A stretch of DNA of 34,533 nt from a bacterium (GTDB lineage: Bacteria; Patescibacteriota; Minisyncoccia; UBA6257; JAGOQP01): assembly GCA_021812345.1 (NCBI GenBank), contig JAKANP010000009.1, forward strand, positions 1 to 34,533. The letters are read 5' to 3'. The notes beneath the pieces were generated by a model. It saw nothing but the letters and a program-made list of their open reading frames with translations. It was not told the origin of the DNA and made no database searches. Both the position numbers and the translations under genes were made by a program. Below are positions 10,943 through 18,777 of this stretch, piece by piece; the stretch's first letter is position 1, and every line of letters starts with the position of its first letter.

Positions 10943-11983
10943 CTATTCAATAGTTATCGGCCTTACCGAAAGAGCAAAAAACTTCTTGTGATTTTCTATA
11001 TTTTCAGCCGCAACCCCGGTCCCCCTCACGACACAAGTAAGCGGATCATCAACCGATATCGTTCTGACGCCTATCTCCTTCTCAATAAGGTCGCTGAATC
11101 CTTTAAGCAAACTACCTCCTCCCGAAAGGTAAAGGCCATTATTCAAGACATCTCCGGCGAGTTCGGGCGGAGTTTTTTCCACGGTGTCTTTGATTGCTTC
11201 TATAATTTGCCTCACCGACGGCATAAGCGCCATTCTCGCTTGAGAATCTTTTATTATGGTTTCTTTGGGCAATCCGGAGGAAAGATCTCTTCCGGATATT
11301 TTTATTTCAATCGGTTTACCGGTATTGATGGCGGAGCCGATTTCTATTTTTATCTTTTCGGCAGTCGGTTCTCCAATTGCCATTTTAAAATCATCATGAA
11401 CATATTGAGCTATGTCGTTATTCATTTTATCGCCGGCGATTTTCAAACTTTTTGAAACAACCACTCCTCCCATTGAAACAATAGCAATCTCACAAGTGCC
11501 TCCGCCAATATCAACCACCATATGAGCTGTGGGCTCGTTTATCGGCAAATTTGCCCCAAGCAAAGCGGCAATAGGTTCTTCCATCAAATAAGCTACCGAA
11601 GCGCCCGAAGACACGATGGCATCTTCAACCGATTTTCTCTCAACTTCGGTCAAGTTAGTCGGAATTGCAACGACTGCGCGAATGTAATTAAAAAGACGAT
11701 CTTTTTTTATTTTTTTAATAAAATATTTTAAAATTTCCTGAGCCATCTGAAAGTCGGAAATAACACCGTTTACGAGAGGTCTTACAACGTCAATGTGAAC
11801 CGGGGTTCGGCCCATCATTCTTTTAGCTTCATTGCCTATGGCCAGAACTTGTCCGGTTTTGTTGTTCACGGCAATCATTGTCGGCTCATTAAAAATTATT
11901 CCCTCCCCTTTTAAGTAAACCAGTGAATTAGCCGTTCCCAAATCCACTCCAATATCGGTTTTTATTCCTTTAAATAACTTCAT
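10943..11983 (-). CDS. mreB: Rod shape-determining protein MreB (paralogue 1)
   Basis: DIGVDLGTANSLVY, DIGGGTCEIAIVS, YLSGGGSLLKG actin-fold motifs; start placed at MKLFKG. Confidence 0.96.
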   Translation of the reverse strand: MKLFKGIKTDIGVDLGTANSLVYLKGEGIIFNEPTMIAVNNKTGQVLAIGNEAKRMMGRTPVHIDVVRPLVNGVISDFQMAQEILKYFIKKIKKDRLFNYIRAVVAIPTNLTEVERKSVEDAIVSSGASVAYLMEEPIAALLGANLPINEPTAHMVVDIGGGTCEIAIVSMGGVVVSKSLKIAGDKMNNDIAQYVHDDFKMAIGEPTAEKIKIEIGSAINTGKPIEIKISGRDLSSGLPKETIIKDSQARMALMPSVRQIIEAIKDTVEKTPPELAGDVLNNGLYLSGGGSLLKGFSDLIEKEIGVRTISVDDPLTCVVRGTGVAAENIENHKKFFALSVRPITIE

Positions 11984-13238
11984 TTTTAATACCACTACAA
12001 TACTTTTTTATAAAAGAAAAATCAACTATTTTAGCCTCGGCTTCATTTCTCTTTTTGAACTCTATTTTAGAGCCTGTTTTTTGACTAATAATCAATCTGG
12101 CCGGAATTCCAATCAAGTCGCTTTCGGCAAATTTTTCTCCGGCGCTTTTATCTTGCCTGTCATCAAACAAGACCTCAATTCCCATTTTCAAAAGTTGCGA
12201 ATAAACTTTATTGGCTCTTTCAAAAATTTTTTTATTCTCTTTTTTATCATTAGAAACCAAAGCGATTAAATGAATTTCAAAAGGCGCGATCGATGAGGGC
12301 CAAATTAATCCCCTATCATCATGAGACGATTCGGCAACCGCCCCCATTAATCTTGAAGTGCCGATTCCATAACATCCCATAATAACCAATTTTTCTTCTC
12401 CATCTTTATCTTTAAATTTAAGTTTAAACGGATCCGAATACTTGGTGTTCAACTTGAATATATTACCCACTTCAATCCCTTTTCCAAGAACCAAAGGAGT
12501 TCCGCACTTAGGACAAGAATCTCCATCTTTTGAGCTGTTTATCTCGCTATTTTGGGCAAAGTGGCATTTTTTACAGTAAACAATAGAGTCTTCCCCATTT
12601 TCCGAGAGCACTTGAAATTCGTGAGAATATTTTGAAAACGTTCCACCGGAGGCTTCTACCAATAAAGCATCAAGCTCGACTCTTTTATATATTTTTTGAT
12701 AAGCGATTATGGCTTTGGAATAATATTTTTCCAAATCCTCGCCATCGGAATGAAAGGAATACAAGTCCTTCATCATAAACTCTCTTCCTCTTAATATTCC
12801 GGATTTGGCTCGCGGTTCGTCTCTGAATTTTGTTTGTATTTGATATAACCCGAAAGGAAGATCTTTGTATGAAAAAATAGCTTTTTGAGCCAAAGGAACG
12901 ACTACTTCTTCGTGAGTCGGTCCAAGAGCAAATTCTTTTTTGTCGCGCGAAACGATTTTAAATAAAGCTTCAAAAGTTGACCATCTTCCCGTTTGTTGCC
13001 AATTTTCTTTAGGGTTTAGCGCGGGCATCAAAACCTCCTGAGCACCGATGGCGTTTATCTCGTCTCTTACGATGGAATTGATTTTATTCAAAACTCTTAG
13101 CCCAAAAGGCAAATACGAATAAACTCCGGCCATAAGTTTGTCAATAAAGCCGGCCCTGATTAAAACCTTTGCGTTGTACGATTCTTCGTCTTTGGGAAAT
13201 TCTTTTCTAATAAAATTTGGGATTTGAGATTGAAACAT
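11970..13238 (-). CDS. proS: Prolyl-tRNA synthetase, short form
   Basis: Class II motifs (GPTHEE, RDEPRAKSGILRGREFMMKDLYSFH); Cys pairs in place of the INS editing domain. Confidence 0.95.
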   Translation of the reverse strand: MFQSQIPNFIRKEFPKDEESYNAKVLIRAGFIDKLMAGVYSYLPFGLRVLNKINSIVRDEINAIGAQEVLMPALNPKENWQQTGRWSTFEALFKIVSRDKKEFALGPTHEEVVVPLAQKAIFSYKDLPFGLYQIQTKFRDEPRAKSGILRGREFMMKDLYSFHSDGEDLEKYYSKAIIAYQKIYKRVELDALLVEASGGTFSKYSHEFQVLSENGEDSIVYCKKCHFAQNSEINSSKDGDSCPKCGTPLVLGKGIEVGNIFKLNTKYSDPFKLKFKDKDGEEKLVIMGCYGIGTSRLMGAVAESSHDDRGLIWPSSIAPFEIHLIALVSNDKKENKKIFERANKVYSQLLKMGIEVLFDDRQDKSAGEKFAESDLIGIPARLIISQKTGSKIEFKKRNEAEAKIVDFSFIKKYCSGIKNEVI

Positions 13239-15019: not shown

Positions 15020-15069
15020 AGATAATTTTTCTTTAAGATTTTTCAAAAATCATCGGCTTTTATTCATCA

Positions 15070-15107
15070 ATTCATTGTCGGTTTCAATATTGAAACCGAC
15101 AATGAAT
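15070..15107. repeat. 38-bp perfect palindrome (P1)
   Basis: attcattgtcggtttcaatattgaaaccgacaatgaat equals its own reverse complement. Confidence 0.98.
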
Positions 15108-15118
15108 ACAGTTATAAC
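15090..15118 (+). promoter_or_regulatory. Putative promoter TTGAAA-17-TATAAC for the TrpR-like gene, -35 inside palindrome P1
   Basis: -35 at 15090-15095, -10 at 15113-15118. Confidence 0.5.
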
Positions 15119-15154
15119 TAATAAGATCTGTAAATAATTTTTATATATTACATT

Positions 15155-15550
15155 ATGAGCAAAATTTCAAAAAATAAATTAAGTGACGAATTAAAAAAAG
15201 AATCAATTGAGTTACTATCCAAAAGAATTAAAAAAGTTGAAACAATAAACGATTTGGAAAGATTTTTAAATATGTTTTTTACTACTCTGGAAAAAGATAC
15301 GATTTTAAGACGTCTGGCGGTAATGATTTTACTTGATAGAAAATAAATATATATAGATATTTCGACTTTTCTGGATATCTCAAAAGCTACCATAAGCAAA
15401 ATAAATCACATTTCTCTTGGTGATGGATACGGCAAAAATCTCAGCAAACTAGGAAAAAGAATATATTCTAAAGATCGGCCAAACCATTCAAAAAAAGAAA
15501 GACACAAAAAATTATTCCGACCATATAAAGGAGCCGAGAGCATCATATAA
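15155..15550 (+). pseudogene. TrpR/YerC-YecD-like HTH regulator interrupted by in-frame TAA at 15344-15346
   Basis: First part ...LERFLNMFFTTLEKDTILRRLAVMILLDRK, then stop, then same frame IYIDISTFLDISKATISKINHISLGDGYGKNLSKLGK...AESII*; matches the TrpR-fold HTH pattern across the stop. Confidence 0.75.
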
Positions 15551-15585
15551 TTATTGCCGGTTTCAATATTGAAACCGGCAATAAT
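15550..15585. repeat. 36-bp perfect palindrome (P2), near-identical to P1
   Basis: attattgccggtttcaatattgaaaccggcaataat equals its own reverse complement; shares the 30-bp core attgYcggtttcaatattgaaaccgRcaat with P1. Confidence 0.98.
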
Positions 15586-15600
15586 AGAAATCTCAAAACC

Positions 15601-15637
15601 AAAAACGGGTTCACCCCGTTAGAGATGGCCCGTTTTT
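15601..15637. repeat. Hairpin aaaaacggg/cccgttttt; left half of a BIME-like inverted pair
   Basis: 9-bp stem; contains ccccgttagagat, inverted at 15700-15712. Confidence 0.75.
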
Positions 15638-15699
15638 TAAATTATAGGACAGATCAATATTATATTTTATCAACTCCTTGCTATGCGGATGCCAACTAA

Positions 15700-15732
15700 A
15701 TCTCTAACGGGGCAAGCCTAACCCGTTTTTTT
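15700..15732. repeat. Right half of the BIME-like inverted pair (atctctaacggggcaagcctaacccgttttttt)
   Basis: atctctaacgggg is the exact reverse complement of 15614-15626; followed by cccgtt and a T tract. Confidence 0.75.
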
Positions 15733-15772
15733 ACAAAATTATTATTTTCCGAAATCTATCAAAAAGCAGAAA

Positions 15773-17763: not shown

Positions 17764-18777
17764 CTATTTTTTATTAAGAAGTGTTCGCTTATAGACATCA
17801 AGGTGATTTAAGATAAGTCCCGTGCCTTTGGCTACGCAAAACAAAGGCTCTTCGGCAACATAAGAATTAACCCCGAGCGCTTTCTTAAAAAATACCGGCA
17901 AATTTTCAATTTGAGCTCCTCCTCCGGAAAGCACCAAGCCTTTTTCCATAATATCAGCAACAAGTTCGGGCGGAGTTTCGTTAAAAACTTTCTGTACCGC
18001 TCCGGCAATCTCCACTAATTGCGGATGTAGGGCTTCGGCTATTTCATTGGAATTGATGATTAAATCTTTAGGAAGGCCACTGGCGCTGTCTCTACCTCTT
18101 ATTTGGTATTCTTTTTTTGACCTTCCCGTTGTTGCCGAACTGATGGCGATTTTTACATTTTCAGCTGTTTGCTCTCCAATATGAAGAGAATATTTTTTTC
18201 TGATGTAATCGGAAATGGATTGGTCAAATTTATTTCCGGCGACCCTCAAACTTGCCCAAGAAACGATTCCGCCCAAAGAAACAACGGCAACTTCGGAAGT
18301 CCCCCCACCAATGTTGATTATCATATTACCGGAATGAGAATTAATAGGAATACCGGCTCCCAAAGCGGCCAGAATCGGTTCCTTGACTATGTAAGCCTCT
18401 TTGGCGCCCGCTTCAACGGCGGCTCCAATAACGGCTCTTTTTTCCGTTTGAGTTATTCCCGCAGGAACAGAAATAACAACATCCGGTTTAATAATTGTTC
18501 CAAGCGCTCCAACAGCTTTGGATATAAAATATTTTAAAAGAGCTTTAGTTATATAATAATCGGCAATCACGCCGTCTTTAAGCGGTTTATAAGCAACGAT
18601 ATCCGATGGGGTCTTGCCTATCATTTCTTTAGCTTCTTTTCCGACGGCTAAAACTTTATTTTCAGGAACACTTAAAGCAACAATGGTTGGTTCGTTGATG
18701 ACAAAGCCCTTGCTTGGGGCAAAAACAACCGTGTTGGCGGTCCCCAGATCAATCCCAATTTTTGTAGTAAAAGCCAT
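17764..18777 (-). CDS. mreB: MreB/MreB-like protein (paralogue 2)
   Basis: KIGIDLGTANTVVF, NIGGGTSEVAVVS, VLSGGGAQIENLP. Confidence 0.93.
   Translation of the reverse strand: MAFTTKIGIDLGTANTVVFAPSKGFVINEPTIVALSVPENKVLAVGKEAKEMIGKTPSDIVAYKPLKDGVIADYYITKALLKYFISKAVGALGTIIKPDVVISVPAGITQTEKRAVIGAAVEAGAKEAYIVKEPILAALGAGIPINSHSGNMIINIGGGTSEVAVVSLGGIVSWASLRVAGNKFDQSISDYIRKKYSLHIGEQTAENVKIAISSATTGRSKKEYQIRGRDSASGLPKDLIINSNEIAEALHPQLVEIAGAVQKVFNETPPELVADIMEKGLVLSGGGAQIENLPVFFKKALGVNSYVAEEPLFCVAKGTGLILNHLDVYKRTLLNKK

Follow-up and report, generated by a model that had tools for sequence, protein, structure and literature searches.

A window of 34,533 nucleotides (the whole stretch of bacterial DNA that was analysed) carries, at the junction of frr and a propeller gene, a TrpR-like gene with a perfect palindrome at each end. 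The locus raises the question of whether the palindromes are operators of an autoregulated repressor gene or the ends of a small mobile unit, the two alternatives put forward in the initial annotation of the window. Both proposals are probably right. The block is, at a probability of about two in three on the sequence comparisons below, a single representative of a minimal mobile element composed of a palindrome, a TrpR-like gene, and a second palindrome.

A TrpR-like gene between perfect palindromes

The features of the locus are as follows.

15022..15595, no strand: block missing at the syntenic site of same-genus genomes, borders approximate
15070..15107, no strand: upstream palindrome, perfect, 19+19, 38 bp, core CGGTTTCAATATTGAAACCG
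15090..15118, + strand: promoter-like TTGAAA-17-TATAAC with the -35 within the palindrome, read directly, by consensus resemblance only
15155..15550, + strand: TrpR-like gene of the divergent class, stop-interrupted, basic tail ending YKGAESII
15344..15346, + strand: in-frame TAA at codon 64, ahead of the DNA-binding helices
15550..15585, no strand: downstream palindrome, perfect, 18+18, 36 bp, with the 20-bp core of the upstream copy and outer arms that differ yet are paired

Both palindromes, reported in the initial annotation, were confirmed at these positions, far beyond chance; neither has a loop between its arms (loop 0), and the downstream one takes in the final base of the TAA closing the long frame. 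Both carry the 30-bp core that they were said to share, without any mismatch (15074-15103 and 15553-15582), and 100 shuffles of the window gave 0 matches to it. The promoter also reads as described, with TTGAAA at 15090-15095, a 17-nt spacer, and TATAAC at 15113-15118. Assignment of the gene to the TrpR superfamily stands, as its read-through frame matches PF01371 (Trp_repressor) with E=1e-9 and 38.6 bits, above the curated cut-off of 27. What had been missed is the interruption at codon 64, which splits 15155-15550 so that translation table 11 yields a 63-aa ORF only; either the window gene is a pseudogene or the stop results from a sequencing error. Since the read-through frame scores under the cut-offs of both the YerC/YecD (HisR) equivalog TIGR02531 (29.1 against 42.2 bits) and the TrpR equivalog TIGR01321 (13.6 against 67.25), the gene was assigned to neither HisR nor TrpR.

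All 36 aligned relatives match PF01371 (E<=0.01). The structure model of one of them, from genome G003, shows five helices in the TrpR fold, most of that domain at pLDDT above 90, together with a poorly ordered tail. Its best structural matches are the TrpR-like 3g1c, 3kor, and 1tro, with E-values above 0.01. A Pfam scan revealed no known catalytic domain in these TrpR-like proteins. Elsewhere in the window, two terminator-like hairpins downstream of the block (15610-15735) have an inverted 13-bp repeat in common (CCCCGTTAGAGAT), a related pair being carried by the same-genus genome G002, and two genes appear MreB-like by eye only (10943-11995 and 17764-18777).

Core copies and insertion at the frr/propeller junction

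The genome of the window (G000), 725 kb in size and belonging to a relative of Ca. Wolfebacteria, is a fragmented assembly, as are G144 (see below) and others. It contains eight exact copies of the 20-bp core and a ninth with one mismatch, versus a single PF01371 match, and all nine copies are intergenic with respect to predicted genes. They form three close pairs, namely the window pair, a pair at valS (2.35 kb apart), and a pair at a 158-aa ORF (0.7 kb apart). The seven copies outside the window have no TrpR-like gene nearby, which counts in part against the operator proposal. Four of these seven lone sites fall within co-directional gene pairs, with a start codon ~70-145 nt downstream, as would be expected if the gene served the cell as a TrpR/HisR-type repressor, autoregulated through one operator, with a second site at the gene's 3′ end and with dispersed operators that make up a small regulon. 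The TrpR fold, the operator geometry, and the promoter-like sequence overlapping the upstream site also favor such a repressor. This explanation is nevertheless unlikely, because two other lone sites lie between convergent genes, the genes beside the sites are unrelated, and neither the sites nor the TrpR-like gene are conserved within the genus.

The core was absent from the two same-genus genomes G001 and G002 in a search with an 18-mer allowing one mismatch, and parS-like chromosome sites were rejected because of this absence. Outside the genus, it occurs in one of 245 genomes of the order (G003), as a single copy in an ordinary stretch of coding frame that looks like chance. Across 264 Gb of bacterial genomes, four single matches turned up, which are near chance level and look accidental, and a scan of viral contigs gave none. 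A phage origin was rejected, with no IMG/VR relatives for two subfamilies and none for one relative in phage records.

Comparison of the junction with relatives, as the initial annotation had suggested, revealed that G001 and G002 keep the frr/propeller gene order and that a block of ~575 bp is missing from both. G002 aligns on both flanks without ~574 bp (about 15022 to 15595). Because the block is missing at the syntenic site in both same-genus genomes, its insertion appears recent. By these alignments, the palindrome-gene block is a species-specific insertion at an otherwise conserved site, with a polarity inferred from two relatives. The mobile-unit proposal is supported both by this absence and by the recurrence of the layout with other cores in many genomes. 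The missing block overshoots the palindromes by ~48 bp on the left and ~10 bp on the right, and, in agreement with the initial annotation, no clear target-site duplication was found, a possible imperfect one (AAATCAAAG/AAATCTCAAA) being unconvincing. Therefore, the exact extent of the mobile unit is left undefined. The two lone palindromes flanking valS are also missing at the matching sites in both relatives; the EF-P/mnmA junction is rearranged in the relatives, and that site is thus uninformative for insertion.

The paired and lone sites also have neighbours of their own. valS (L015:7076-9199, contig C4), located between two palindrome copies, is a xenologue replaced in place. It shows 45% identity to G001, 42-49% to two pieces in G002, and 66% to G003, a genome of another genus; the two G002 pieces match G001 at 82%, and the genes neighbouring valS follow the species tree. 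Because the native leader and first codons are retained, it is less likely that the palindromes coincide exactly with the ends of the foreign valS. The palindrome-bracketed 158-aa ORF (L016:7709-8430, contig C11) reaches up to 61% GC in a stretch of ~35% GC, has no Pfam match, and looks foreign. Tandem copies of GACCTCACCTTAGGGTTATTTTAATAAGATAAAAATAACC adjoin a lone palindrome at L017:9500-9615 (contig C16), and an ORF start at L015:11164-11643 resembles a LAGLIDADG homing endonuclease (IAGFLDGDGSL; by eye only).

Recurrence with other cores and probable copying of the outer arms

A PF01371 search of the order separated two classes of proteins. Ordinary TrpR proteins are mostly about 95-120 aa long with E below 1e-15, whereas the divergent TrpR-like proteins have tails that are longer and basic, and number up to nine per genome. 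Perfect palindromes, commonly one per side with a common core, lie near almost all of 43 loci of the divergent class, which were taken with flanks not known beforehand and with preference for multi-copy genomes rather than at random. Bracketing in the strict sense (loop 0, half-sites with 8 or more identical bases, within 400 bp) applies to 23 of 44 divergent genes (the 43 loci and the window gene). The other 21 have no strict same-core bracket, some of them having imperfect or looped palindromes or lying at contig ends. Strict bracketing was found at none of 22 frr and EF-P control loci, at 2 of 395 positions drawn at random from the same loci, and in 3 of 22 members of a TrpR control set, two of these three having the longer frames of the divergent class. 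Among loci from outside the order, 7 of 28 are bracketed. The palindromes often sit after stop codons, as would be expected of chance palindromes or of common hairpins, for example transcription terminators; this explanation is refuted by the controls and is highly improbable, because identical cores occur on both sides of the gene and genome-wide, terminators have no common core, and shuffles and controls gave almost none.

The gene regularly has a site after it, and several paralogues can occur in one genome, each with its own core; both features argue further against a cellular repressor. G144 has nine divergent TrpR-like genes and one core at 22 places, of which 19 are exact, none has one mismatch, and three have two, the mismatches of two of these three being symmetric pairs.

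Paired palindrome copies have a half-site of ~10 nt in common, with the consensus WRNNATAGC from the centre outwards (25 elements) and an A at position 7 in 25/25. The core fits a site for a TrpR-type dimer, given that the sites of the TrpR family are palindromes of 20 bp and that cacTTTAnnnnnnTAAAgtg has been published as the HisR motif (PMC9413887). Protein similarity correlates with half-site similarity (Mantel r=0.46, p=0.0002, n=24): pairs from different genomes have 75% of half-site bases in common at 50-70% protein identity versus 42% at 20-30%. The cores of the window gene and its closest intact relatives are CGGTTTCAAT here, TGGTATCAAT in G003, and TGGTTCTAAT in G061. The TrpR-like protein thus probably binds its own palindromes. 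The operator proposal keeps this part of its support, namely the 20-bp TrpR/HisR geometry, cores that track protein relatedness, and an upstream copy overlapping a promoter-like sequence.

The same co-variation bears on another explanation, in which REP/MITE-type palindromic repeats are moved by an unrelated host transposase, with the TrpR-like gene carried along as a passenger or exapted as a binder. An excess of lone copies over gene copies and a TrpR-like protein without a catalytic domain would agree with it. Cores that track the TrpR-like protein make it a poor candidate, as does the lack of any Y1 transposase (Y1_Tnp) match in nine of the 15 carrier genomes (G000, G144, G226, G227, G038, G035, G003, G061, and G087), in a search covering the Y1 family only. 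With no match across these nine genomes, Y1 transposase was likewise rejected as a helper.

The arms of the palindromes run on average 4.1 nt past the 10-nt half-site, where 0.37 nt would be expected. Compensated differences, i.e., bases that differ between the copies and are paired within each, occur in 12 of the 24 bracketing pairs. Of 20 compensated positions, 18 lie at position 10 or further out. Protein binding does not need arm symmetry beyond the half-site, and this extended symmetry with its compensated differences also argues against a cellular repressor. In G227, the first or last bases of the coding sequence recur in mirrored form in the outer arms (outer TACCCAT, inner ATGGGTA), and a paralogue with an identical inner sequence has no mirrored arm, which indicates copying from inside to outside. 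The compensated arms suggest fold-back copying of DNA. Such copying does explain the arms, whether it took place as the element inserted or through template switching at quasi-palindromes, which is an established process.

A probable minimal mobile element and its known counterparts

In the proposed minimal mobile element, a protein dimer would bind the ~20-bp core of its own palindromes in the manner of TrpR/HisR, and the upstream palindrome would double as an autorepression operator, as geometry and co-variation suggest. Comparison with the two relatives shows that the unit entered the frr/propeller junction in this lineage. Lone palindromes may be scars left by gene loss between repeats, or non-autonomous copies moved in trans. 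Because of the compensated differences and the arms mirroring coding sequence, the outer arms may be inner arms copied through a hairpin, at insertion or later by template switching. As the protein has no recognisable catalytic domain, movement would probably proceed via host replication/recombination proteins, which it might recruit or expose to the hairpin. With the sole gene copy in this genome broken, the family may now be inactive there. A bolder version, which we regard as possible though rather doubtful, makes the TrpR-like protein itself the mobilisation factor of a hairpin-ended element: it would bind the palindrome, the DNA would fold back as a hairpin, and its off-centre opening would write the outer arms as mirror copies. 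The result would be a transposon with no recognisable transposase, and such palindrome pairs may also bear other cargo.

REPtrons, in which RAYT genes are flanked by REP/REPIN palindromes dispersed in the same genome (PMC3733652, PMC3116915), are similar in several respects. Here, too, a gene is flanked by palindromes dispersed in the same genome (nine copies in G000, 22 in G144), several types of gene and palindrome occur per genome and change together, and copies are mostly extragenic, with few within genes. In contrast, RAYT is a Y1 (HUH) tyrosine transposase, whereas the bracketed gene here is a PF01371 protein in which no catalytic domain was found; REPs are imperfect, GTAG-tagged hairpins, whereas these palindromes are perfect and loop-free with a TrpR-type half-site; and copies number about 9-22 rather than hundreds. 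As the defining Y1 transposase is missing, the element is not a REPtron, and the best reading of the analogy is a REPtron-like minimal mobile element in which a TrpR-fold binder would replace the Y1 transposase. TrpR and HisR (YerC) belong to the same fold family and have a 20-bp palindromic site, with autoregulation plausible, and the half-site here resembles the HisR NNNTAAAGTG read from the centre (PMC9413887). Unlike them, the present gene is multi-copy and lineage-specific with an extra basic tail, its sites flank it on both sides, and no histidine or tryptophan genes were noted beside the dispersed sites. CGTC REPs resemble the lone sites as dispersed palindromes without a dedicated transposase (PMC3733652).

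The open-access literature that was searched contained no description of such an element, nor of a gene-plus-palindrome family of this kind in Patescibacteria. The recurring, species-specific unit of TrpR-like gene and palindromes thus looks like a type of minimal mobile element that had not been described before. Patescibacteria genomes are very small, and the unit, if mobile, would rank with the smallest mobile units known to us that bear a gene (about 0.4-0.6 kb), and it would move without a recognisable transposase. With many subfamilies, each having its own palindrome, protein-DNA recognition and co-divergence can be tested directly, and the compensated arms would preserve a natural trace of fold-back copying in the DNA of bacteria.

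Rickettsia palindromic elements are also dispersed palindromes without a dedicated transposase, with some copies within genes. Neither they nor CGTC REPs are known to bracket a gene, whereas here a gene is bracketed by matching cores. A likeness to the Rickettsia elements is seen in G144, where one palindrome copy lies in frame within an NADH dehydrogenase-like gene (contig C15, L129:173-1630), part of which reads N; the palindrome-bearing stretch corresponds to a loop that is longer than in solved relatives.
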